From contig PMBG01000104.1 in NCBI GenBank assembly GCA_003153755.1, positions 27,682 to 63,337 on the forward strand: 35,656 nt of DNA, read 5' to 3'. Every line of letters begins with the position of its first letter. Positions within the stretch are counted from its first letter, which is position 1. Below are positions 3,352 to 21,229 of the stretch, in pieces. The translations under genes were made by a program, and so were the position numbers. Under the pieces are notes generated by a model. The model ran no database searches. It was not told the DNA's origin and saw nothing but the letters and a program-made list of their open reading frames with translations. The DNA is from Chloroflexota bacterium. Lineage in GTDB: Bacteria > Chloroflexota > Limnocylindria > Limnocylindrales > CSP1-4.

Positions 3352-5211
3352 ATGCAAGCACGCGTCAATCGGATCTTGGGAGTGGCGGCGGCGTCGCTCC
3401 TGGTAGTGACGGCGATCGCCGCCACGAGGTCGGCACCAATCGTGGCCAACTCTCACGTGGTCAACCCGTACGCCGGCGCCGCGGGGTACGTGGACCCGAG
3501 CTACGCCTACCAGGTGGAGCGGTCGGCCAAGGCCATGGACGCCTCGAACCCGCAGCTCGCGGCCGCAATGCGCGTCGTCGAGCAGCAGTCCACGGCGGTG
3601 TGGCTCCCCAGCATCGCCTCGATCGCCGGGCCGGCTTCTCCTCAGCCCGCCAATGGCTACAGCCTGAAGGGACATCTCGACAACGCCGTCGCTCAGATGA
3701 ACAGCAACGGCGGTACGCCGGTTGTGATCACCCTCGTGATCTACGACGCTCCCGGCCGTGACTGCGGCGCAACGGCATCGGCGGGCGAACTCACCACGGA
3801 CGGGTTCGGGTTCACCCGCTATATGACTCAGTACATCGACCCGATCGCGGCACTACTCAACGACTCGAAGTACGCCGACCTTCGCATCGCGCTGGTCATC
3901 GAGCCCGACGGCCTGCCGAACATGGTCACGAACCTCGTGAGCCAGAACTGGATCGCCCCGCAGACGGTGATCAACTGCAACGCGGCCCACAACTGGGTCG
4001 ACGGTGCGGTCATCTACTCTCTCGGCAAGTTCCACCCGATCGTGAACGCCTATACGTTCCTCGACATCGCCAACTCCACCTGGCTCGGCTGGTCGTCAAA
4101 CCAGGACTTGGCCGCCACCTACTACGCGAACCTGATCACCGGATCGAAGGCCTCCGGCGCACTGCCGGACGGGTTCAACTCCGTCGACGGCTTCTCGTCC
4201 AACGTCTCCAACTTCGTGCCTACGACCGAGCCCTTCTTCACGGCTAGCAAGCCGGTCGACGCGACGAGTGCCACGTTCTACGACAGCAACGCGACGGTCG
4301 ACGAGCTCGGCTACGCCACCGCGGAGCTTGCCAAGCTCAAGGCCAAGGGCTTCACCGCCAACACCGGCTGGATCATGGACACCGGCCGCAACGGCTGGGG
4401 CGGTCCGAACCGACCGACCAAGGCCAGCACCAGCACGTCAGTCAATACATTCATCGATCAGTCGAGGATCGACCGCCGAACCACCCGCGCCGCCTATTGC
4501 AACCCAGACGGCGCCGGTATCGGTGCGCTGCCGAGCGCCACCCCGTCCGGAAGCCCCGGCATCTGGGCCAACGTCTGGGTCAAGCCCCCGGGCCAGTCCG
4601 ACGGCGGTGCCACCAGCGGCATCGCGGGCTACGATTCCAACTGCGACCCGTCCAAGACCGTTTCCATGAAGACCCAGCTAACGGGCGCGCTCCCCAACGC
4701 CCCCAGAGCGGGCACCTGGTTCCCGCAGCAGTTCCAGCAGCTTGTGGCGAACGCCTATCCCGCGCTCAACGGCTACAGCCCGGCCACGAACGGCCCACCA
4801 AGCACCGCGACTCCGGCCGCGGGGGCCTCTTGTATCGTCAACGGGGCGCCCAAGGTGAGCGCCACCGGTGTCTGGTACCCGGACGCGAGGTGGGTCAACA
4901 CCACCGCCCTCGGGCAGCAGTACACGGGCTTCCAGGCAACCGTTACCGTCGTCAACAACGGCACCGTGCCAACCACGGGCTGGAAGGTCACGTGGGTTTG
5001 GAAGACCGGCTCTGGGTGGGATAGCGTCGCGACGTTCCAGAGCTTCTGGAACGGCAACGAGTCCCTGGGCTCGGACGGGAACACCGAGACCGTGACGAAC
5101 ATGAGCTACAACGGTGTCATCCAGCCCGGCCAGAGCACGACCTTCGGGTTCGTTGCGAACGTCAGCAACGGCATCGTTCCGTCGCCGAAACTGACCTGCA
5201 CCGCAAGCTAA
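3352..5211 (+). CDS. Secreted GH6 cellulase (cellobiohydrolase/endoglucanase) with C-terminal CBM2
   Basis: 619 aa. A signal peptide (residues 1 to about 30, MQARVNRILGVAAASLLVV) precedes a GH6 catalytic domain (about 60-480). Both GH6 signatures are present: VIYDAPGRDCGA near 127, and VIEPDGLPNMV with the catalytic-acid Asp near 186. DTGRNGW near 343 and WVKPPGQSDG complete the active-site loops. The last ~120 residues form a family 2 carbohydrate-binding module, with TGWKVTWVW, FQSFWNG and the usual Cys at each end for a disulfide. GH6 enzymes hydrolyse beta-1,4-glucan with inversion, releasing cellobiose; whether this one is exo- or endo-acting depends on loops I cannot judge. Start chosen at the ATG with AAGGA 6 nt upstream and a signal peptide directly after. 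A strong terminator follows. Confidence 0.95.
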   Translation: MQARVNRILGVAAASLLVVTAIAATRSAPIVANSHVVNPYAGAAGYVDPSYAYQVERSAKAMDASNPQLAAAMRVVEQQSTAVWLPSIASIAGPASPQPANGYSLKGHLDNAVAQMNSNGGTPVVITLVIYDAPGRDCGATASAGELTTDGFGFTRYMTQYIDPIAALLNDSKYADLRIALVIEPDGLPNMVTNLVSQNWIAPQTVINCNAAHNWVDGAVIYSLGKFHPIVNAYTFLDIANSTWLGWSSNQDLAATYYANLITGSKASGALPDGFNSVDGFSSNVSNFVPTTEPFFTASKPVDATSATFYDSNATVDELGYATAELAKLKAKGFTANTGWIMDTGRNGWGGPNRPTKASTSTSVNTFIDQSRIDRRTTRAAYCNPDGAGIGALPSATPSGSPGIWANVWVKPPGQSDGGATSGIAGYDSNCDPSKTVSMKTQLTGALPNAPRAGTWFPQQFQQLVANAYPALNGYSPATNGPPSTATPAAGASCIVNGAPKVSATGVWYPDARWVNTTALGQQYTGFQATVTVVNNGTVPTTGWKVTWVWKTGSGWDSVATFQSFWNGNESLGSDGNTETVTNMSYNGVIQPGQSTTFGFVANVSNGIVPSPKLTCTAS

Positions 5212-10551: not shown

Positions 10552-10653
10552 CAGGCGCCTAGCACTTCTCCGGCGTCGCCGTCAATCGGGTTAGTGGTCC
10601 TTGACGACTTGCCCCCGATGGGTGAATCCTGACCGCAACTTCGGTGCGCAGCC

Positions 10654-10664
10654 CGAAACTTTCG
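10654..10664. promoter_or_regulatory. LacI-type operator candidate before the GH10 xylanase
   Basis: CGAAACTTTCG is a perfect 5-1-5 inverted repeat and resembles LacI-family operators with CGAAA/TTTCG half-sites. It lies 37 bp before the xylanase start. A LacI-family gene sits just downstream of the xylanase and is the natural candidate regulator; the pairing is inference. Confidence 0.5.
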
Positions 10665-10700
10665 ATTCGGCCGCCCAAGTCAGCCCCTCGGGGGATTGGG

Positions 10701-13700
10701 ATGACTCGTAGCTACTCGATCTGGAAGTACCTGTTCACGATATTCACGCTGGTCGTCCTGGCGGCGCCCGTCGCCCTGGGCGCCCCAACGATCGCGCGTG
10801 CTGCCGACACCACCGTGTCGAGCGTCAACTTCAACGACTCCACCACGGGAACCTGGACGCAAAGTGGCGGACCCACGCTGACGTACGTCGATGACGGCGC
10901 CGGCGGCAAGGCCCTCAGCATCCTGCGTGCCGCGGACTACGAAGGCATCCAGTCGCCGACGGGCATGCTGGCGCACACCACCGTCTACACGTTCTCGATG
11001 CGCGCCAAGCTGCCCGACGGCGCCGCCGGCTCTACGAGCATCCGCTTCGTGGTGAAGCCCAACTACACCTGGGTGGGCAATACCACGATCGACGCTTCCG
11101 GCTGGAAGACCGTCACGGGCACCTACACGCTGCCCGACGACGTCGATCCCACGACCGCCCAGATCTACATCGGCAGCGACAATGCCGCCGACTCCAACCC
11201 GTATGCGCTCCTGATCGACGACATCCTGATCACGGCGCCGCTCGCGCCTCCGCCTGCCGCGACCGTCATCAGCACCGACTTCGAGAACGGCCTGGACGGC
11301 TGGGTGGCGCGCAACTCCCAGGGCACGCCCACCGTGGACCTGACCACGACCGAGGCTCACAGCCCCACCCACGCCGCTCTGATATCGAACCGCACCGGCC
11401 AGGGTGACGGCATCGGCCACGACGTCACCGGCATCATGAAGGCCGGCACGATCTATACGGTCACGGCCTGGGTCAAGTTCGTATCCGGCTCGCCCACGGA
11501 CACGCTGTGGCTCAGCATGCGGCGCACGGTGGGCGGAAGCGATAGCTACGACACCGTCGCCCAGATCGCCGGCGTCCGGGGGGACGCCTGGACGCAGGTG
11601 AACGTCAACTACACGATGGGGACCGCGGACGCGGCCTTCATCTACTTCGAGACGACCTACCCCGACGGCACGGCGGCGTCATTCCTGGTCGACGACATCG
11701 TCATCCAGACGCAGGCCGGCCCCGTCATCGATCCCAACCTGACGCCCCTCAAGGGAACCGTCACCTTCCCGGTAGGTGTTGCGATCGATAACCGCGAGAC
11801 CGTAGGCGCCTATGCGCAGCTCGTGAAGCAGCAGTTCGGCCAGATCACCCCCGAGAACTCGATGAAGCCCGAAGGGTGGTATGACGCGAGCAAGAACTTC
11901 CGGATCAATCCGGACGCGAAGACCCTCATGGACTTCGCGCAGGCGAACGGCGTCCGCGTTTGGGGCCACACCCTCGTCTGGCACTCGCAGACTCCGGACT
12001 GGTTCTTCCAGCACGACGACGGCACCCCGCTCACCTCGAGCGATGCCGACAAGGCGATTCTGCGGGCCCGCCTCCACGACCACATCTTCAACATCGCCCA
12101 GACGCTGAGCAGCATGTACGGGGCGTTCGGAAGCGCCACGAACCCGCTGGTGGGGTTCGACGTCGTCAACGAAGTCGTGTCGGACGGCACGACAGAGTCC
12201 GACGGCCTGCGACGAAGCGCCTGGTACAACGTCCTGGGAGCCGAGTACATCGACGACGCCTTCAACTACGCGAACACGGCGTTCAACCAGACGTACGCGG
12301 CCGCCGGCACGACCCGCCCGATCAAGCTGGCGATCAACGACTACAACACCGAGCAGTCCGGCAAGCGCCAGCGCCTCCACGACCTCGTCGCGGGCCTGCT
12401 CGGCCGCGGCATCCCGGTCGACATCGTGGGCAACCAGTTCCACCTCAGCCTTGCCACTCCCATCCAGTCGATCGACGACGCCCTCACGGCCTTCGAAGAC
12501 CTGCCGGTCATGCAGGACGTGAGCGAGCTGGACATTCCCACGGGAACCCCGGTCGACCAGGCCAAGCTAATCGATCAGGGCTACTTCTACCGCGACCTGT
12601 TCGCGACCTTCCGTAACCACTCGTCTCACCTGTTCTCGGTGACTGTCTGGGGCCTGTACGACGGACGCAGCTGGCGCAGTTCGTCGGGCGCCCCGCTCCT
12701 CTTCAACGACAGTCTCAAGGCAAAGCCGGCCTTCACCGGCGCGATCAACGGCAAGCTCCCTGCGCGCATCCGCACCGGCAATGTGTTCCAGGGCAGCGTG
12801 CCGCTTGACGCCGGCGCCACTTCGTCGCTGGAATGGCAGAAGCTTCCGCTCTTCACCTTCGGCGACAACGGAAAGGTGAGCTTCCAGACGCGCTGGGAGA
12901 CCGATCACCTGACCGCATTCGTCTCAGTGAAGGACGCCACCGTCGATGCAACCGATGCAGTTGCGTTCAACCTCGGCGGCACCGCCTATACCTTCAGCCG
13001 CGGCGGAACCGGCACCGTGTCCGGCGTCGCCCGGGAAGTCGGCGGCGGCTGGCAAGCTGTGGTCTCACTGCCGCTTACAGCCGCCAAGGTGGGCGACCAG
13101 CTTGCGCTGGACGTCGCCGCGACGGACGGCACCACGACGACCGGCTGGAACGATCCGGGGGCGACCGGCACTATGACGCTCGTCGAGCCCCTGTCCTTCG
13201 TGGACATCGCGCCGACGAACGTCGCTCCCACGATCGACGGCACCGAGGACCTGGTCTGGTCGCTGGCGAACACGGCCTCCACCGACAAGCAGATCTCCGG
13301 CACGGGCGGCGCGACCGCGACGGTCAAGACGCTCTGGCACGGCAATACGCTCTACGTACTCGCTCACGTGGTCGATCCCACGCTCGACAACACGTCCTCC
13401 AATCCGTGGGAGCAGGACTCGGTCGAGATCTTCATCGACAACGTGAATGCCAAGAACGGCTCGTACCGCGCCGACGACGCCCAGATGCGCATCAGCTACA
13501 CGAACGTCCAGTCGTTCGGTACAGGCGATGAGGCCGCCCAGAAGGCTCGCCTCACCAGCGCAACGAGCGTCGTCTCCGACGGCTACATCGTCGAGGCGGC
13601 GATCAGCCTCCTGAACACCAGTACCGTCGGCTCGATGGTGGGCCTGGACTTCCAGGTCAACGACGGGACCGGCGGCAAGCGAACCGCCGTCAAGAGCTGG

Positions 13701-14438
13701 GCCGATCCCACCGGCAACGGGTATCAGAGCACCTCGCGCTGGGGCGTGGGACGGTTGGCCCAGGACGTCACGGTTCCGGTGCTCAGCGCTCCCTCTCCGC
13801 TCTATCTCACCGCGACCGCGAAGGACGGCTATCACGGCCTGACGGCGGCTGCCGCCGGAGTAACCGCGACGGACGCCTTCGATCCTTCCAGCGCATTGAC
13901 GATCACCGGCAACGCGCCGTCGGTCCTCCCGATCGGCACGACAACGGTGACCTGGAAGGTGACCGACGCGGCCGGCAACAGCTCCACCGCTGTGCAGCAG
14001 GTGATCGTCGCGCGCCGGGTTTCCACCCTTCCGGTCTACTTCGGTGATCGGCGAGTCGAGGTCCGGCAGAACAGCTCGTTCGGGTTCGGTGCGGTCCTTG
14101 TGGCCGGCACGGCACCCTGCATGGCGGGTCAGACGCTGAGCTTCTCGCTCAGCGTCGATCCGGTCACGGGGCAGAAGGTGACCACGCTCATCGGTACCGC
14201 CAACACGAACCGGTTCGGCTTCGCGTTCCTCAATGTTCCGACAAGCCAGTGGGAGCCCGGGGTCTACAGGCTCACGGTCTCCTACGCCGGCAACAACAAG
14301 GGTTGTCTTGCGTCCTCGACGTCGGTCTCCATCGTCGTGGTCACGCCGAGGCATCCGCGGGTTGGCCCGGGTGGGTTCCTCTCGGACGTCGGCTGGGAGT
14401 CTCCCTCAAGCCTGGCGTCGCGAGAGGTTCGCCTCTAA
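10701..14438 (+). CDS. Secreted multidomain GH10 endo-beta-1,4-xylanase (CBM22-CBM22-GH10-CBM9-like-CBM9-HYR-Ig)
   Basis: 1245 aa. A signal peptide (1 to about 35) is followed by two CBM22-type modules (about 36-180 and 190-350), each ending in a LLIDDILI/FLVDDIVI strand. The GH10 domain spans about 360-690: PENSMKPEGW, VWGHTLVWHSQTPDWF, acid/base Glu491 in FDVVNEVVSDG, nucleophile Glu609 in DVSELDIP, and VTVWGLYDGRSW. A diverged CBM9-like module (about 700-840) and a clearer CBM9 (about 845-1025, with EQDSVEIFIDN) come next. A HYR domain (about 1040-1120, DAAGNSS) and an Ig-like C-terminus finish the protein. It cleaves xylan outside the cell. Start chosen at the ATG before the signal peptide; a GTG at 10644 is in frame but unlikely. 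No dockerin or sorting signal is seen. Confidence 0.95.
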   Translation: MTRSYSIWKYLFTIFTLVVLAAPVALGAPTIARAADTTVSSVNFNDSTTGTWTQSGGPTLTYVDDGAGGKALSILRAADYEGIQSPTGMLAHTTVYTFSMRAKLPDGAAGSTSIRFVVKPNYTWVGNTTIDASGWKTVTGTYTLPDDVDPTTAQIYIGSDNAADSNPYALLIDDILITAPLAPPPAATVISTDFENGLDGWVARNSQGTPTVDLTTTEAHSPTHAALISNRTGQGDGIGHDVTGIMKAGTIYTVTAWVKFVSGSPTDTLWLSMRRTVGGSDSYDTVAQIAGVRGDAWTQVNVNYTMGTADAAFIYFETTYPDGTAASFLVDDIVIQTQAGPVIDPNLTPLKGTVTFPVGVAIDNRETVGAYAQLVKQQFGQITPENSMKPEGWYDASKNFRINPDAKTLMDFAQANGVRVWGHTLVWHSQTPDWFFQHDDGTPLTSSDADKAILRARLHDHIFNIAQTLSSMYGAFGSATNPLVGFDVVNEVVSDGTTESDGLRRSAWYNVLGAEYIDDAFNYANTAFNQTYAAAGTTRPIKLAINDYNTEQSGKRQRLHDLVAGLLGRGIPVDIVGNQFHLSLATPIQSIDDALTAFEDLPVMQDVSELDIPTGTPVDQAKLIDQGYFYRDLFATFRNHSSHLFSVTVWGLYDGRSWRSSSGAPLLFNDSLKAKPAFTGAINGKLPARIRTGNVFQGSVPLDAGATSSLEWQKLPLFTFGDNGKVSFQTRWETDHLTAFVSVKDATVDATDAVAFNLGGTAYTFSRGGTGTVSGVAREVGGGWQAVVSLPLTAAKVGDQLALDVAATDGTTTTGWNDPGATGTMTLVEPLSFVDIAPTNVAPTIDGTEDLVWSLANTASTDKQISGTGGATATVKTLWHGNTLYVLAHVVDPTLDNTSSNPWEQDSVEIFIDNVNAKNGSYRADDAQMRISYTNVQSFGTGDEAAQKARLTSATSVVSDGYIVEAAISLLNTSTVGSMVGLDFQVNDGTGGKRTAVKSWADPTGNGYQSTSRWGVGRLAQDVTVPVLSAPSPLYLTATAKDGYHGLTAAAAGVTATDAFDPSSALTITGNAPSVLPIGTTTVTWKVTDAAGNSSTAVQQVIVARRVSTLPVYFGDRRVEVRQNSSFGFGAVLVAGTAPCMAGQTLSFSLSVDPVTGQKVTTLIGTANTNRFGFAFLNVPTSQWEPGVYRLTVSYAGNNKGCLASSTSVSIVVVTPRHPRVGPGGFLSDVGWESPSSLASREVRL

Positions 14439-14459
14439 CCTCCCCGGAGGCGACTCGCA

Positions 14460-14489
14460 GAAGACGGCGGCCAATCGGCCGTCGTCTTC
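14460..14489. terminator. Bidirectional terminator between GH10 and LacI genes
   Basis: A 13-bp stem (14460-14472 with 14477-14489, one G-U pair) closes on an AATC loop. It lies between the convergent xylanase and LacI-regulator genes and just misses the LacI stop codon. T tracts are short on both sides. Confidence 0.65.
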
Positions 14490-14492
14490 GAT

Positions 14493-15557
14493 TCAGGGCC
14501 GGGGCGAATCCTGGACGCGGAGCGGCGCCGTGCTCGCACGCGTCACGAGACTCGTCGCAAGCTCCACTCGCGTTTCGGTGGGATGCTCGCCGGCGGCGAG
14601 GCGGATAACCAGTCGCGCGGCCGTGACCGCCATCTCGACGAGTGGTTGGCGGACCGTGGTCAGGGGCGGGTTGGCCCACTGGGCGGTGGGGATGTCGTCG
14701 AAGCCTACGACGCTCACGTCGTCGGGGATGCGGAGGCCAAGGTCGCGGGCCGCCAGGTATACGCCGAGCGCCTGGAGATCGTTCAGCGCGAAGATGGCCG
14801 TGGGACGCGTGGACGGATCCCGATCCAGGAGGATGAGCGCCTCACGGATCGCCTCGTTCACGTAGAAGTTGCCGTGGCGGATGAGGCTCGGATCTACCTC
14901 GACGCCGGCCGCGTCCATGGCGGCGCGGTATCCGTCGAGGCGGGCCCGGCTGCACAGGAGATTCTCCGGGCCCGCGATGACGCCTATGCGGCGGTGGCCG
15001 AGATCAAGCAGATGGCGCGTGGCAGTAAGGCCGCCGCTCCAGTTGGTGGCGCCTACAGACGGAGTGTCGTGCAGCGGTTCGCCGGTGGGATCGACAACCA
15101 CGAGCGGTATCCCCCGACTGCGCAGCTGCGCCCGCATGTTGTCGTCGAGCGCCGACAGCACCACGATCACGCCCGCGGGACGGCGCGCCACGACATCCTC
15201 GATCCAGCCGCGGCCCGCGGCGTTGGATCCCTTCATCTCCGAGAGGACGAGCCCGAGATCGTTCTCCGACGCCACCCGGCCGGCGCCCTTTATGAACTCG
15301 CCGGCCCACTCGCTCTCGAACTCGTGGAATGCCAGTTCGAGGAGCGGGGCCCCGCGCGCCTTCCTCCGAGTCGGCGTGTAGCCTTGCTCGCGCATCACGG
15401 CTTCGACGCGTTCACGAGTCAGCATGGAAACGTCCGAACGGCCGTTGATGACCTTGGACACCGTCGGCGCGGACACACCTGCCCGCAGGGCGATGTAGGC
15501 GATCGTCATTGGACGCGGTGCCTCGTCCATGTCCGGGCTGATAGGTTCGGTGGCCAC
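14493..15557 (-). CDS. LacI-family transcriptional repressor
   Basis: 354 aa from a GTG at 15557. The N-terminus has the LacI helix-turn-helix and hinge (TIAYIALRAGVSAPTVSKVI, NGRSDVS, RERVEAVMREQGY). A periplasmic-binding-type ligand domain follows, with GLTATRHLLDLGHRRIGVIAG, LRIPDDVSVVGFDDIP and NPPLTTVRQP. It likely represses carbohydrate genes and is released by a sugar. The xylanase, with a CGAAA-TTTCG operator candidate at 10654, is the closest target; this is inference. TACACT lies 6 nt before the GTG, suggesting a leaderless transcript and supporting this start. An ATG at 15530 would drop nine residues and still keep the HTH. It follows the EamA gene on the same strand with an 83-bp gap. 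Confidence 0.9.
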   Translation of the reverse strand: MATEPISPDMDEAPRPMTIAYIALRAGVSAPTVSKVINGRSDVSMLTRERVEAVMREQGYTPTRRKARGAPLLELAFHEFESEWAGEFIKGAGRVASENDLGLVLSEMKGSNAAGRGWIEDVVARRPAGVIVVLSALDDNMRAQLRSRGIPLVVVDPTGEPLHDTPSVGATNWSGGLTATRHLLDLGHRRIGVIAGPENLLCSRARLDGYRAAMDAAGVEVDPSLIRHGNFYVNEAIREALILLDRDPSTRPTAIFALNDLQALGVYLAARDLGLRIPDDVSVVGFDDIPTAQWANPPLTTVRQPLVEMAVTAARLVIRLAAGEHPTETRVELATSLVTRASTAPLRVQDSPRP

Positions 15558-15563
15558 GGACCG

Positions 15564-15569
15564 AGTGTA
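15564..15569 (-). promoter_or_regulatory. -10 box of the LacI gene, leaderless type
   Basis: TACACT on the minus strand is separated by 6 nt from the GTG at 15557. No Shine-Dalgarno is visible. The box gives the LacI gene a promoter of its own, separate from the EamA gene upstream. Confidence 0.45.
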
Positions 15570-15640
15570 CAGAATGCGCGGCAAGCGATCGGGCCGCGCG
15601 GCGCAGGTGCGGCTCTCGGACTTAGTGCTTTGCGGGGGCG

Positions 15641-16585
15641 TCAGGCCGGGTACGCCAGCTCCGTCTCCGCTTCCTGGCGCGGGTTGCGTATGGAGATCGA
15701 CACCACGACGACTCCGGCCAGCGTCGCCGCCGCGCCGACGAAGTCGAGTGCCGTGAGCGGCTCGCCGAGCATGATCCATGACGACGCGAGGCCCACCACC
15801 GGGACCATCAGGAAGCCCATGCTCACGGCCAGCGGACTCAGCGAACGCGAGACGGACTGCGTGAGCCAGAACGCGAGGGCAGTGGCGATGGGGCCGCTGT
15901 ACAGGACGGCGGCCACGGCCGTGGGTTCCCAGTGGATGGTCCTGCCCGCCTCGAGCGCGAACGCGAGGATGGCGAGCGGCACGAGCGCGGTCAGGAGCTG
16001 CCACGGCATCAGGTTGAACGGTGTTCCGTGCCACTCGTGATGCCGCAGGTGGATCGTCGTGGCGGCCCAGATCACGGCGCTGGCGAGAAGGACGGCGCTG
16101 CCGAACAGCTGACCCCCGGACGCCCAATCGATCGACTGCGGGCTAAGCAGCAGCGCGATTCCGACCAGACCGATGAGCAAGCCGGCGACCTGCCGCCCGG
16201 CACCCCCGGCGCGGAGGCTCGACAGCTGGAAGAGCCCCACCCACAACGGCATCGTGTAGACGAGGATCGAAGACCGGCCGGCCGCCACCAGCGGCAGCGC
16301 GAGGTTCATCGCCGCGATGCCGGCGGCCATCTGGCCCAATCCCACCGAGGCGACTACGGGGAGGTCCCGTCGATCGGGAAGCGACAAACCGCGGCGCGCA
16401 GCGAGCATGACGAGTATCACTGCCAGCCCGCCACCGACCCGCAGCGTCGCGTATGTGAACGGCGGAAGATCGCGAAGGCCGATTTTGGCGACCGGCCAGT
16501 GGACTCCCCACGCGAGCCCCAGGCACAGAAGGAGCAGATACGGACGAACGCGTGCGCCACCCAGCGTCGATCGAATGGTGGTCAT
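15641..16585 (-). CDS. EamA/DMT-superfamily exporter
   Basis: 314 aa from the ATG at 16585, with ten predicted transmembrane segments in two EamA repeats of about 140 residues each. Conserved features include LGLAWGVHWPVAKIGLRDLPPF in the first repeat and GPIATALAFWL plus LMVPVVGLASSWIMLGEPLT in the second. This last pattern is typical of RhaT/EamA family metabolite exporters. The substrate cannot be read from sequence. TATGGT lies 6 nt before the ATG and suggests a leaderless transcript. The 5' part of this gene has a decayed copy at about 18460-18555. Confidence 0.9.
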   Translation of the reverse strand: MTTIRSTLGGARVRPYLLLLCLGLAWGVHWPVAKIGLRDLPPFTYATLRVGGGLAVILVMLAARRGLSLPDRRDLPVVASVGLGQMAAGIAAMNLALPLVAAGRSSILVYTMPLWVGLFQLSSLRAGGAGRQVAGLLIGLVGIALLLSPQSIDWASGGQLFGSAVLLASAVIWAATTIHLRHHEWHGTPFNLMPWQLLTALVPLAILAFALEAGRTIHWEPTAVAAVLYSGPIATALAFWLTQSVSRSLSPLAVSMGFLMVPVVGLASSWIMLGEPLTALDFVGAAATLAGVVVVSISIRNPRQEAETELAYPA

Positions 16586-16591
16586 CGCGGA

Positions 16592-16597
16592 ACCATA
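16592..16597 (-). promoter_or_regulatory. -10 box of the EamA gene, leaderless type
   Basis: TATGGT on the minus strand is followed by 6 nt and the ATG at 16585. No Shine-Dalgarno lies between them. Confidence 0.5.
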
Positions 16598-16649
16598 GCC
16601 GATGGAGCCTGCGGACCGCTTCCCATGATCTTCTCGCGCTCCCCAGCCG

Positions 16650-16655
16650 TACCAT
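16650..16655 (+). promoter_or_regulatory. -10 box of lipoprotein copy A
   Basis: TACCAT sits 28 nt before the start and aligns with TACAAT at the same place before paralogous copy B. The flanking CCCAGC and the GGGGAGG ribosome-binding site are shared by both. Confidence 0.55.
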
Positions 16656-16683
16656 CCCTGTAGAGCCAACGGGGAGGATGGAA

Positions 16684-17583
16684 ATGTTGCGCTTCAGGGG
16701 ATTCGGGCTGGTCGCCGTCTTGGGTCTCGTAGTCGGTGTCGCCGGCTGTACAACCGCGTCTCCCGTGTCGAGCGCGCAGGCGGCCGATCTCCATCGTCAG
16801 GCGCAGGCGGCACTGACCCGCTGGGACGCCGCGGTGGCAGCAAGCGGCGGGGCACCGGATTTCGTGCTCGTCGGAGAGCGGACGCTCTTCGTCGGCAATG
16901 ACTGGGGCCCGAACATAGACGCCGGGAACGCCAAGGTGGCCTGGTACGCGGGGCTCTTCGTGGCCTCGGAGCCGCTCCCAACTGACGCACCACCGGCCGG
17001 CAGCATCCGCTGGCAGGACGGGACGAACCGGGCCGTGGCGGTGATCTCGGCGCAGCAGGCCCTGACCGACATGAAGACTACCGGCGGATCGCCATGCCCC
17101 ACCTGCACGCCCCTCGAGGTTACCGGCGCCAGATTGACCACGGCGACGTTCCAGAGCAGCAAAGGTCCGGCAGAGGTCCCCGCCTGGGAGTTCAGCCTGA
17201 AGGACGCGGAGGCCAAACTCGATCAAGTGGCCGTGAAGACCCGGTTCGCGGTGCCGCCGGTACCCGGCGCGGAGGACCAGACGGGGCAGTGGGTGGGACC
17301 TTCGGTGATGTCGGCGACCGCCGGCGTGGACGGCATAACCCTCACCGTGAGCTTCGTCGGCGCTCCGGAGACCGGGGACAAAGGCTGTGGAGCCGACTAC
17401 ACGGCCGACGCCGTCGAGTCGGACAACGCGGTCGTCGTGATCGTCTACGAGCATCGAAACACTCTGCCGGTCGCGTGCACGGACGTCGGCGCAACCCGGA
17501 CGGCTCGGGTCACCCTCGCCCGTTCGTTCGGCAGCCGGACATTGATCGATCTTCAGGCCCAGCCGATATCGGTGACCAGGTAA
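16684..17583 (+). CDS. Lipoprotein of unknown function, copy A of a duplicated pair
   Basis: 299 aa. A signal peptide ends in the lipobox VAGC (Cys about 21), so the protein should be anchored outside the membrane. The rest is soluble, with the Cys pair SPCPTC and two later Cys (KGCGADY and VACTDV) that could form disulfides. I do not recognise a family. It aligns along its full length with the gene at 18598-19527; conserved blocks include WDAAVAA, PAWEFSLKD, AVESDNAVVVIVY and GSRTLIDLQAQPI. GGGGAGG is followed directly by one ATG and by a second ATG 6 nt later. The second is chosen because its spacing is right and copy B has the same arrangement. Divergent from the EamA gene. Confidence 0.85.
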   Translation: MLRFRGFGLVAVLGLVVGVAGCTTASPVSSAQAADLHRQAQAALTRWDAAVAASGGAPDFVLVGERTLFVGNDWGPNIDAGNAKVAWYAGLFVASEPLPTDAPPAGSIRWQDGTNRAVAVISAQQALTDMKTTGGSPCPTCTPLEVTGARLTTATFQSSKGPAEVPAWEFSLKDAEAKLDQVAVKTRFAVPPVPGAEDQTGQWVGPSVMSATAGVDGITLTVSFVGAPETGDKGCGADYTADAVESDNAVVVIVYEHRNTLPVACTDVGATRTARVTLARSFGSRTLIDLQAQPISVTR

Positions 17584-17631
17584 TCCGGCGGACACAGGCA
17601 CCCCGACCGACCGACCGGTCCGGCCCAGCGC

Positions 17632-18342
17632 TTATGGCAGCCAGGCCTCGGCGCTCAGCGATTGGCCCGTTCCGGACGAGTAGCAGGTTGGGATCGGGGC
17701 CGCGCCGGCTGCCTTTGACACGACCCGCCCCAACCCAAATGGCATCACGACGGCAACGGTGACGTTCTGTGTCGGCGCCGACTTGCACCAGTTGCCCCAG
17801 GTCACGATGTCGTAGATGACGCCGTTTGGGGCGAGTGTGTACACCGGGTCGCCGGTCGAGATCTCGCCGCCGCCGGCTCCCGAATCGGTGATGACGGAGC
17901 CCTTTCCGTCGAGCATCTGCGTCTGCGGCTTGCCGCGCATGCTGCAGCTCGCCGACGACACGTTCGTCGCGGTCAGGTTCGCATATGACATCCCGTTGTT
18001 GTTGTGCCAGACGTTCTCCAGCTTCAGCTGCGCGCCGGTGCACAGACCGATGGCAAGGGCCGGTAGCGGAGTAGGGGCTTTGGTGGGGGCCTTCGTAGGG
18101 GCCGGCTTCGGCGTCGGCGTCGGCGTCGGCGTGGCGATCGCGGTCGGCGCAGGTGTCGGCGTGTCCGTCGGCGCGGCCGTGGCAGCCAATACCGTTTCGG
18201 ACGGCGAGGGCCCAAAGACAAACGTGTTGGCCGGAGACGGGCTGGCGGAGCCCGAACCGCACGCCGAGGCCACGAGCGCGGCGGCCAGGATCAGGCCGGC
18301 AGTGGCGACCGATCGGCGCCCCGCGGAAAGGCTACGTGTCAT
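17632..18342 (-). CDS. DUF4232-type lipoprotein with Thr-Pro linker
   Basis: 236 aa. A signal peptide with lipobox VASAC is followed by a low-complexity Ala/Thr/Pro/Lys stretch (about residues 55-95) that should act as an extended spacer. A ~135-residue domain resembles DUF4232: LCTGAQLKLENVW, a Cys in ASCSMRGKP, then VTWGNWC and PTCYSS, giving four Cys for two disulfides. Function unknown; such proteins are common envelope lipoproteins in actinobacteria and Chloroflexota. GAGGAG precedes the ATG. It lies between the two copies of the duplicated lipoprotein but on the opposite strand, so it either interrupted the duplication or was part of a larger duplicated block and its second copy was lost. 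Confidence 0.8.
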   Translation of the reverse strand: MTRSLSAGRRSVATAGLILAAALVASACGSGSASPSPANTFVFGPSPSETVLAATAAPTDTPTPAPTAIATPTPTPTPKPAPTKAPTKAPTPLPALAIGLCTGAQLKLENVWHNNNGMSYANLTATNVSSASCSMRGKPQTQMLDGKGSVITDSGAGGGEISTGDPVYTLAPNGVIYDIVTWGNWCKSAPTQNVTVAVVMPFGLGRVVSKAAGAAPIPTCYSSGTGQSLSAEAWLP

Positions 18343-18459
18343 GCCCTCTCCTCAGGCCGGCTCGAGTGCAAAGGCAAGTGCATAGGACGCTGGCGAGCCG
18401 GTTCGGCGCATTCTGGCAGCGCCCCGCGCCCGCCGGCATCGATCCGGCAAGCGGACTGG

Positions 18460-18555
18460 ATCATGAAACGCCCGATCCGCAGGGCAGGCCGGCCGGTGGA
18501 TTCCCCATGCGAGTCTCAGGCAGAGGAGCCGCAGCTACGGACGGACGCGTGCGCC
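18460..18555 (-). pseudogene. Decayed fragment of the EamA exporter gene
   Basis: On the minus strand this stretch matches the 5' coding part of the EamA gene (about 16465-16558) with only scattered substitutions over about 70 bp. GCGCACGCG, CGTCCGTA, CTCGC, TGGGGA and GGCCGG line up in order. In the intact gene these bases encode RVRPYLLLLCLGLAWGVHWP. The reading frame is no longer used. It lies upstream of lipoprotein copy B, just as the intact EamA start lies upstream of copy A, so both were duplicated together. About 80 bp holding the EamA start are missing between short CCCAGC repeats. Confidence 0.7.
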
Positions 18556-18562
18556 CCAGCGG

Positions 18563-18568
18563 TACAAT
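18563..18568 (+). promoter_or_regulatory. -10 box of lipoprotein copy B
   Basis: TACAAT, close to the sigma-70 consensus, lies 29 nt before the start at 18598 and matches the position of TACCAT before copy A. GGGGAGG follows as ribosome-binding site. Confidence 0.55.
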
Positions 18569-18597
18569 CCCTTGCAGGGCTAAAGGGGAGGATGGAC

Positions 18598-19527
18598 ATG
18601 GCGCGCTTCAGGGGATTCGGGCTGGCTGCCGTCTTCGGTCTCGTCATCGGTGTCTCCGCCTGTACCACCGCGTCGCCCTTGTCGAGCGCGCAGGCGGCCG
18701 ATGCCCACCGTCAGGCGCAAGCGGCGCTGAGCCGCTGGGACGCCGCCGTCGCGGCAACCCGCGGAGTGCCGGGTTTCGTGCTCGTCGGCGAATCGACGGC
18801 GATGGTCGGCGATGATTGGGGCCCGAAGATAGACGGCGGCAATGCCAAGACGGCCTGGTACGCCGGCCTCTTCGTCACGGCAAGCCCGCTACCGGCAGAC
18901 GCGCCTCCGGACGGCAACGTCACGTGGCCGGAAGGGGGCTCCATGACGGTTCCGGTCATGTCGGCGCAGCAGGCTCTTGCCGAGATGAAGGCTGCCTCCG
19001 CAGGGCCATGTCCCGACTGCACGCCGCTGGAGGTCACCGGGGCGAGGCTGAAGACCTCGCAATTCCAGACGACTCGAGGTGTGGCCACTGTTCCGGCATG
19101 GGAGTTCAGCCTGAAGGATACCGACGTCAAACTCGTTCACGCCGCTGTGGGCGGCCCGTTCGTGAGGCCGCCCGAGCCGACCCCGGACGACCAGGCGACT
19201 CCCCCGCTGTGGACCGGTCTATCGGTCGAAGCGGCGACACTCGCGCCGGACGGAGTGACCCTCACCGTGGGCTTCGGCGGAGCCCAGGGCCACGGCGACA
19301 AAGCCTGCGGAGTCGACTACACGGCTGAAGCCGTCGAGTCGGACAACGCGGTCGTCGTGATCGTCTACGACCATCCGAACACCACGCCGGTCAACTGCGC
19401 GGGTGTCGGCGCGTGGCGGACGGCTCAGGTCACCCTGGCCAGACCGTTCGGCAGCCGGACCCTGATCGATCTTCAGGCCCAGCCGATCACCATGTCGCGC
19501 TCCTCGGGACCGCCGGCGGGGCCTTAG
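18598..19527 (+). CDS. Lipoprotein of unknown function, copy B of a duplicated pair
   Basis: 309 aa. It is a full-length paralogue of the protein at 16684-17583, roughly two-thirds identical by eye. Shared blocks run from MARFRGFGL through SSAQAAD, RWDAAVAA, the SAGPCPDC Cys pair, PAWEFSLKD, AVESDNAVVVIVYD and GSRTLIDLQAQPI. The lipobox is VSAC. It ends with a short extra Ser/Gly/Pro tail. As in copy A, two ATGs 6 nt apart follow GGGGAGG and the second is taken as the start. The upstream DNA contains the EamA gene remnant. Its stop lies only 7 bp from the stop of the convergent arabinofuranosidase gene, leaving no room for a separate terminator. Function unknown. Confidence 0.85.
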   Translation: MARFRGFGLAAVFGLVIGVSACTTASPLSSAQAADAHRQAQAALSRWDAAVAATRGVPGFVLVGESTAMVGDDWGPKIDGGNAKTAWYAGLFVTASPLPADAPPDGNVTWPEGGSMTVPVMSAQQALAEMKAASAGPCPDCTPLEVTGARLKTSQFQTTRGVATVPAWEFSLKDTDVKLVHAAVGGPFVRPPEPTPDDQATPPLWTGLSVEAATLAPDGVTLTVGFGGAQGHGDKACGVDYTAEAVESDNAVVVIVYDHPNTTPVNCAGVGAWRTAQVTLARPFGSRTLIDLQAQPITMSRSSGPPAGP

Positions 19528-19534
19528 CCGCCGC

Positions 19535-21049
19535 TCAGCGAGGTTCGGGCTTCGTGGCCAGCCGAACGACGCTCCACGACGCCGCCGGCAGGACAAGCTC
19601 CAGCGAATCGCCGACGATCGCCGCCTCGGGCAGTTCCCGCGGAACGACGCCTTCGGGTCGCTCGCGCGTGCTCGTTTCCCACGGGTCGCCGCCGCCGATG
19701 ACGAGCGCCTCAATCAGCCGCGCCTCCGGCCATGACCCCAGGCGCACCGCCGCGTGCGCCGTCTCCGATGCGTTGCGGTTCACCAGGAAGAGCACGAGCT
19801 CGGCCTGCGCCTCGTCCAGCGTCGCGGCCACGTCCAGCGCCGGGACTCGCCCGTACTTGCGAGTCTCGATCTCCGGTGCCTCGATCGTCGCTCGGAGCGC
19901 CGTCCCTCGGGCGTGGCGCGCGGCGAGCCGGAACGGGTGGAATACCGACGAGCGCCAGACGCCGTCGGCTTCGGCCCGGATCGGAGCGCCGGCGTTCACC
20001 AGCATCGATTGGCAGGCGCAGGTCACTCGATCGGCGTGGTTGAGCAACGAGACGATGAGTGCTCCTGTCACGACGGCGTCGCCGGCGGTGTAGGTGGACT
20101 CGCCCATCCGCCGCTCGACCGGCCAGTCCTGGGGCTTCGGCGCCTTCAGGTCCACGTCGCGCCAGACTCCCCACTCGTCCACCGAGACCGCGAGCGTGCG
20201 ATCCACGCCGCGCCTCGCCGCCGCCGCGTCCGCCTCGGCGATCGCCCGCTCGATCTCCCTGTCGAGCTCCACGCCCGAGGCGAGGAACGTCTGGATGTCG
20301 CGTTCTACCTCCTGGACGTAGATGTGGACGGCGACGTAGTCGGCGAACTCCACGGTCTCATCGAGCACGATCCGATCCCAGTCGGCCGAACTCGGCAGCC
20401 ACGGCGCGGTGTGCCCCGCGACGACCAGCTGAAGCTTCGCGTCGAACTGGCGCATGCCGCGGGCCGTCTCTGCCGCGAGCCGGCCGTACTCGACCGCGGT
20501 CTTGCGGCCGAGCTGCCAGGGTCCGTCGGGCTCGTTACCCAGGCACCACATCCGCACGCCGAACGGGTCGGGGGCGCCGTTCGCGATCCGCCGGTCCGAC
20601 AGGGTGGTTCCACCGGGGTGGTTCGAGTACTCGAGCATGTCGAGCGCCTCTTCGATGCCGCGCGTGCCCAGGTTGACCGCAAACATCGGTTCGACGCCCA
20701 CCTTCGCACACCAGTCGACGAACTCGTGAAGGCCGAAGCTGTTCGAGTCCGTCGTGTGCCAGGCGAGGTTGAGCCGGCTGGGCCGGGAGTCTCGCGGCCC
20801 CACGCCGTCTTCCCAGCGGTAGCCGGAGACGAAGTTGCCGCCCGGGTAGCGGACCACGGTCACGCCGAGCTCGCGGATCAGCGCCGCGACGTCTTCGCGG
20901 AACCCGTTCGGGTCCGAGAGCGGGCTCTCGGGCTCGAAGATGCCGCCGTATACGCACCGGCCCAGGTGCTCGACGAACGAGCCGAAGAGCCGCCGATCGA
21001 CCTCTCCGATCGCCTGGTCGCGATCGACCACCACCGTTGCCCGAACCAC
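19535..21049 (-). CDS. abfA: GH51 alpha-L-arabinofuranosidase, intracellular
   Basis: 504 aa, the usual length for single-domain bacterial GH51. It releases terminal L-arabinofuranose from arabinoxylan and arabinan oligosaccharides with retention. Visible family marks: FGSFVEHLGRCVYGGIFEP, VVRYPGGNFVSGYRWEDGVG, acid/base Glu173 in MWCLGNEPDGPWQ, and nucleophile Glu292 in VSVDEWGVW. There is no signal peptide, so it acts in the cytoplasm on imported oligosaccharides. The GTG start has GAGG 6 nt upstream; the frame continues 25 codons further up without a ribosome-binding site. It fits with the secreted GH10 xylanase 5 kb away, although no transporter lies between them. Confidence 0.93.
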   Translation of the reverse strand: MVRATVVVDRDQAIGEVDRRLFGSFVEHLGRCVYGGIFEPESPLSDPNGFREDVAALIRELGVTVVRYPGGNFVSGYRWEDGVGPRDSRPSRLNLAWHTTDSNSFGLHEFVDWCAKVGVEPMFAVNLGTRGIEEALDMLEYSNHPGGTTLSDRRIANGAPDPFGVRMWCLGNEPDGPWQLGRKTAVEYGRLAAETARGMRQFDAKLQLVVAGHTAPWLPSSADWDRIVLDETVEFADYVAVHIYVQEVERDIQTFLASGVELDREIERAIAEADAAAARRGVDRTLAVSVDEWGVWRDVDLKAPKPQDWPVERRMGESTYTAGDAVVTGALIVSLLNHADRVTCACQSMLVNAGAPIRAEADGVWRSSVFHPFRLAARHARGTALRATIEAPEIETRKYGRVPALDVAATLDEAQAELVLFLVNRNASETAHAAVRLGSWPEARLIEALVIGGGDPWETSTRERPEGVVPRELPEAAIVGDSLELVLPAASWSVVRLATKPEPR

Positions 21050-21162
21050 AGATGACCTCGCATGCGCAACATCGTCGCAGGGCAGGCTAGCATGCGGGGC
21101 GGGCGCAGCGAGCGGGACGGGCACGGCGGGCGGAACGGCGGCGGATCGTCGGATCGGCGGAA

Positions 21163-21193
21163 GAAGGACTCCCCGGCAAACGGGGAGTCCTTC
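21163..21193 (-). terminator. Terminator hairpin after the ABC exporter operon
   Basis: A perfect 12-bp stem (21163-21174 with 21182-21193) closes on a 7-nt loop, just downstream of the 57-aa gene and upstream of the GH51 gene on the same strand. There is no long T tract. Confidence 0.75.
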
Positions 21194-21229
21194 GGAAGAA
21201 CGTGATCGCGCCGGGTTCGGCGCCGCGGT

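Follow-up and report, generated by a model that had tools for sequence, protein, structure and literature searches.

Segmental and tandem duplications in bacteria may leave a truncated flanking gene at the join, and short direct repeats can delete the DNA between them through replication slippage or end joining. Two lipoprotein (LP) genes, A and B, in a window of 35,656 nucleotides (the whole stretch of Chloroflexota DNA that we analyzed) resemble the products of both processes. As in such duplications, the copies are neighbors and in the same orientation (both on the plus strand), the join lies inside a neighboring gene, and the partial copy of that gene later decayed. Unlike in a plain tandem repeat, a second DUF4232 gene is not found here, so that such a repeat is not fully shown. 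The six-base sequence CCCAGC lies at both edges of the DNA that is missing from B and is left there once, as expected for a deletion between short direct repeats; here the repeats would be its cause, judging from a single case.

The window is carried by contig 18 of a genome of 3.3 Mb and 69% completeness, the one genome from which the A/B duplication is known. All seven relatives with named records that were found by sequence are Chloroflexi MAGs. The gene order is GH10 protein (+), LacI regulator (-), EamA transporter (-), LP A (+), DUF4232 gene (-), LP B (+) and arabinofuranosidase-like gene (-), with the DUF4232 gene between the copies, as the first-pass annotation had it. The features that matter for the argument are:

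15641-16585, minus strand: intact EamA-family transporter gene (Pfam PF00892)
16492-16566, unstranded: EamA 5' coding stretch that has a copy upstream of B (blastn and local alignment)
16560-16647, unstranded: CCCAGC repeats (16560 and 16642) and the DNA between them, including the EamA start; missing from B
16684-17583, plus strand: LP gene, copy A (ORF, lipobox, relatives)
17632-18342, minus strand: DUF4232 gene, between the LP copies (Pfam PF14016)
18343-18488, minus strand: upstream region of the DUF4232 gene, common to its contig 23 paralogue
18489-18563, minus strand: dead EamA 5' remnant, without a start and with an in-frame TAG
18598-19527, plus strand: LP gene, copy B; its C-terminal tail differs beyond about 19487

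The EamA gene matches PF00892 with 102.7 bits against a gathering score of 28.2, and the DUF4232 gene matches PF14016 with 36.7 bits against 27, placing both in their families. Across 10644-21124 the lipoproteins are flanked by the GH10 protein, which carries CBM9 and CBM4_9 domains, the LacI regulator and the arabinofuranosidase-like gene, which suggests a plant-polysaccharide locus. A search for tRNA genes within the window and a promoter and terminator scan of 16400-19600 returned none, and a literature search, judged from search results rather than full texts, returned nothing on this locus.

Alignment by blastn demonstrates that A and B are homologous from the putative promoter region through the gene (717 of 944 columns identical, 76%), and their proteins are 67% identical. 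The genes at 16684 and 18598 are thus full-length paralogues, as had been proposed together with aligned promoters and double-ATG starts; indeed, the alignment begins in the promoter region, and the aligned start codons read ATG-GAA-ATG in A and ATG-GAC-ATG in B. The homology stops near 19487, just short of A's stop codon, and B continues to another stop. In bacterial lipoproteins, an N-terminal hydrophobic stretch that ends in a cysteine, the lipobox, marks the protein. Such a stretch closes with LVVGVAGC in A and LVIGVSAC in B, as read from the sequence, so that both look like secreted lipoproteins by their N-termini. Searches for a named family gave no Pfam match (best E 0.014 among nine members) and no NCBIfam match. 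Foldseek found no PDB match at E ≤ 0.001 to the AlphaFold model of A (one model from nine rows, pLDDT 74, pTM 0.65), and the single match in a profile search against solved structures (E 0.36) was taken as chance.

Upstream of B, 18489-18563 aligns with 16492-16566 in the 5' coding portion of EamA, with 62 of 75 columns identical. The local score is 84, whereas 500 dinucleotide shuffles of the DNA upstream of B average 23.6 and never exceed 42. The core of the match is a gap-free stretch of 67 nt in which 11 sites differ from the window's EamA. Read in the EamA frame, the remnant contains a TAG stop, and it has arginine changes at positions kept by nearly all orthologues. With its EamA homology, its lack of a start and its in-frame TAG, 18489-18563 qualifies as a pseudogene remnant and is a real but broken copy of the 5' end of the EamA gene. 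The core matches the window's EamA at 56 of 67 sites and the G001 EamA at 55 of 67; because it is about equally close to both, the remnant alone does not place the copying in this lineage.

Close examination of the left edge moved the boundary of the remnant. The EamA match upstream of B was real as first described, but its proposed start at 18460 was not: 18421-18488 aligns with 16421-16491 at a score that 17.1% of 1000 shuffles reach. Comparison by blastn of 15601-21200 with a DUF4232 locus on contig 23 of the same genome, which carries a second DUF4232 gene, aligned 3479-4323 of that contig with window positions 17641-18488 at 70% identity. Because the extension to 18460 is at chance level and the contig 23 alignment runs up to 18488, the remnant begins at 18489. 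By its homology, 18343-18488 is upstream DNA of the DUF4232 gene, and the DUF4232 block abuts the EamA remnant at a join between 18488 and 18489. Past the point that corresponds to the join, contig 23 resembles neither EamA nor B (score 22 each, against 32 and 34 for the best of 200 shuffles). The copied segment most likely had its edge within EamA, some 94 bp from the start codon. Since the DUF4232 upstream DNA directly adjoins the remnant, the duplication probably took in no more of EamA than about its first 31 codons, and the EamA copy was probably a stub from birth, rather than a whole gene broken later.

Within the DUF4232 upstream region, 34 bases at 18388-18421 are identical upstream of the contig 23 paralogue, in a surrounding block of about 70% identity, and part of this motif also precedes the DUF4232 gene of G008; it looks like a conserved promoter or operator. 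Genes for Kelch-repeat proteins adjoin both the second DUF4232 copy (L085, 976-2478) and the LP gene of G011 (L016, 5940-7634).

The right part of the remnant reveals how B lost the EamA start. In line with the first-pass annotation, A has CCCAGC at 16560 and 16642, B has a single one at 18555, and the DNA between the repeats, with the EamA start codon, is missing from B. Aligning the EamA starts of nine genomes establishes the polarity of this difference: the window, G001 and G014 have in common the start and the 30 bp or so that precede it, so that the region was lost from B and not gained by A. The EamA start of B was removed by a deletion of about 82 bp between the CCCAGC repeats. At the EamA start region, A reads as the ancestral state and B as the derived one. 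This comparison, together with the in-frame stop and arginine changes of the remnant, bears out the proposed direction from A to B.

The relatives qualify the idea that copy A stands in its original context. A search of 61 genomes, including our own, found LP in 13 (counting G012, which has a fragment only), and 11 of these are among the 21 genomes of the genus. A corresponding search of 37 genomes found EamA in 12, again including our own; 11 of the 12 belong to the genus. Both genes occur in six genus genomes (G000, G004, G006, G007, G008 and G012), and in all five others besides our own the two genes are on separate contigs. Searches for LP at 11 EamA loci gave no match better than E 0.01, and searches for EamA at 14 LP loci from 11 genomes gave none better than E 0.048. 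The EamA locus of G004, at a contig edge, is outside these 11 loci; neither of the two LP loci of G004 has EamA. Thus, among the genomes examined, EamA and LP are adjacent in the window only. The check on relatives that had been proposed found LP at other places and the EamA-copy A pair in none of them. Because the pair is seen in the window alone, A's context is original relative to B, but not more broadly.

LP seems to be an accessory gene with a patchy distribution. In G016 and G011 it is flanked by an ABC transporter gene on one side and an arcC-OTC cluster on the other; the LP gene of G009 is located about 5.5 kb from arcC. Across 11 genus genomes that have this ABC gene, the gap between it and arcC measures 12-133 bp in six, including the window's genome, about 0.5 kb in two and 1.8 kb in one; in the remaining two (G016 and G011) it contains LP. 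In genomes outside the group of six the gap reaches up to 6 kb with accessory genes. The gap (L077, 5790-5918; L078; L079) is an insertion spot in the genus, and not a proven home of LP; a move of LP to EamA from this slot was considered and is weakened, with LP in two of 11 slots and a gap of at most 133 bp in six. G004 carries two LP genes on different contigs (L011, L015) that are sisters of each other (support 100/99), which is a second, independent duplication.

A and B are sisters in the LP trees, with support of 87/84 among 14 LP rows and, among eight rows, 97/96 for protein and 97/94 for DNA. In AU tests on protein, trees that group either A or B with five close relatives are not rejected (p 0.17 and 0.19), and on DNA the grouping of A with these relatives is borderline (p 0.049). 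The dS between A and B is 0.51, smaller than that to every relative compared (0.67-0.92 for the five close LP relatives, measured from either copy); the dS of EamA to nine orthologues is 0.62-0.98. The duplication is old and probably younger than the compared species splits. With a dN/dS of 0.47, both copies were apparently kept under purifying selection and are seemingly functional. The B branch is longer than that of A (0.37 vs 0.22). Of 163 positions that are invariant in the five relatives, 20 are changed in A, 24 in B and six more in both (p 0.65), and because of this result we claim no rate asymmetry and set aside faster protein change in B. The higher identity at both ends of LP led us to consider gene conversion between the copies, which we dropped when third-codon identity, scanned along the gene and compared with 5000 permutations, gave p 0.48.

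We consider it likely that a nearby duplication in this lineage copied a segment from the edge of EamA through LP, and that a deletion at CCCAGC, decay of the remnant and retention of both LP copies followed, presumably in that order. The segment would have run from about 94 bp inside EamA across the EamA-LP intergenic region and through the LP gene, so that the new copy B took along just the clipped EamA 5' end. The deletion of about 82 bp would then have cost B the EamA start and left the remnant immediately ahead of B's putative promoter region, and the two LP copies would have diverged under purifying selection while the remnant decayed.

Two routes could have placed the DUF4232 gene between the copies: either it belonged to a tandem unit of about 2.0 kb and its second copy was later lost, or the block was inserted later. 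A tandem duplication spanning the DUF4232 gene, the second copy of which would since have been lost, is the route we tentatively infer, and the join at 18488/18489 fits a unit of 1,997 bp. The simple tandem model predicts a second DUF4232 gene after B, and finding no trace of one at 19488-19540 (15.7% of 1000 shuffles reach the score) counts against it. That same absence favors insertion of the block between two directly adjacent copies of the EamA 5' end and LP, outside the duplicated unit, as do the dispersed contig 23 paralogue and its homology to 17641-18488, which ends right at the remnant. Paralogues in 19 of the 21 genus genomes (E ≤ 1e-5) mean, however, that the block need not be a late arrival, and we hold late insertion to be possible but short of probable. 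The first-pass annotation had the exporter gene carried along and then broken. For this, a later deletion could have taken the remainder of a complete EamA copy up to the DUF4232 upstream region, but it would have had to stop exactly at the edge of the DUF4232 homology, and the DNA upstream of B, including 18421-18488, holds no more EamA homology. With DUF4232 upstream DNA abutting the remnant, the breaking step is unneeded, and we regard a complete EamA copy as unlikely.

The EamA-like stretch might instead be retained for a function, as a promoter or a regulatory element of LP, since its identity to EamA (84%) exceeds the A-B third-codon identity (66%). The 84%, however, is for the best-matching stretch and therefore biased upwards, the relatives searched (L016-L022) lack the stretch upstream of LP, and no sigma-70-like promoter was found; such a role is very unlikely. 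More speculative still, and in our judgment highly improbable, LP and DUF4232 would be roaming accessory surface-protein modules of this Chloroflexi genus, moving together with their own promoter regions, the EamA stub would be part of B's control region, and the copies would be expressed under different conditions.

On the preferred reading, a nearby duplication with a clipped EamA edge, the A/B pair is an ordinary, well-resolved gene duplication. It changes nothing about mechanism. Rather, it illustrates how parent and offspring genes can be told apart in bacteria, namely by a clipped neighboring gene at the edge of the copy, polarized by relatives.
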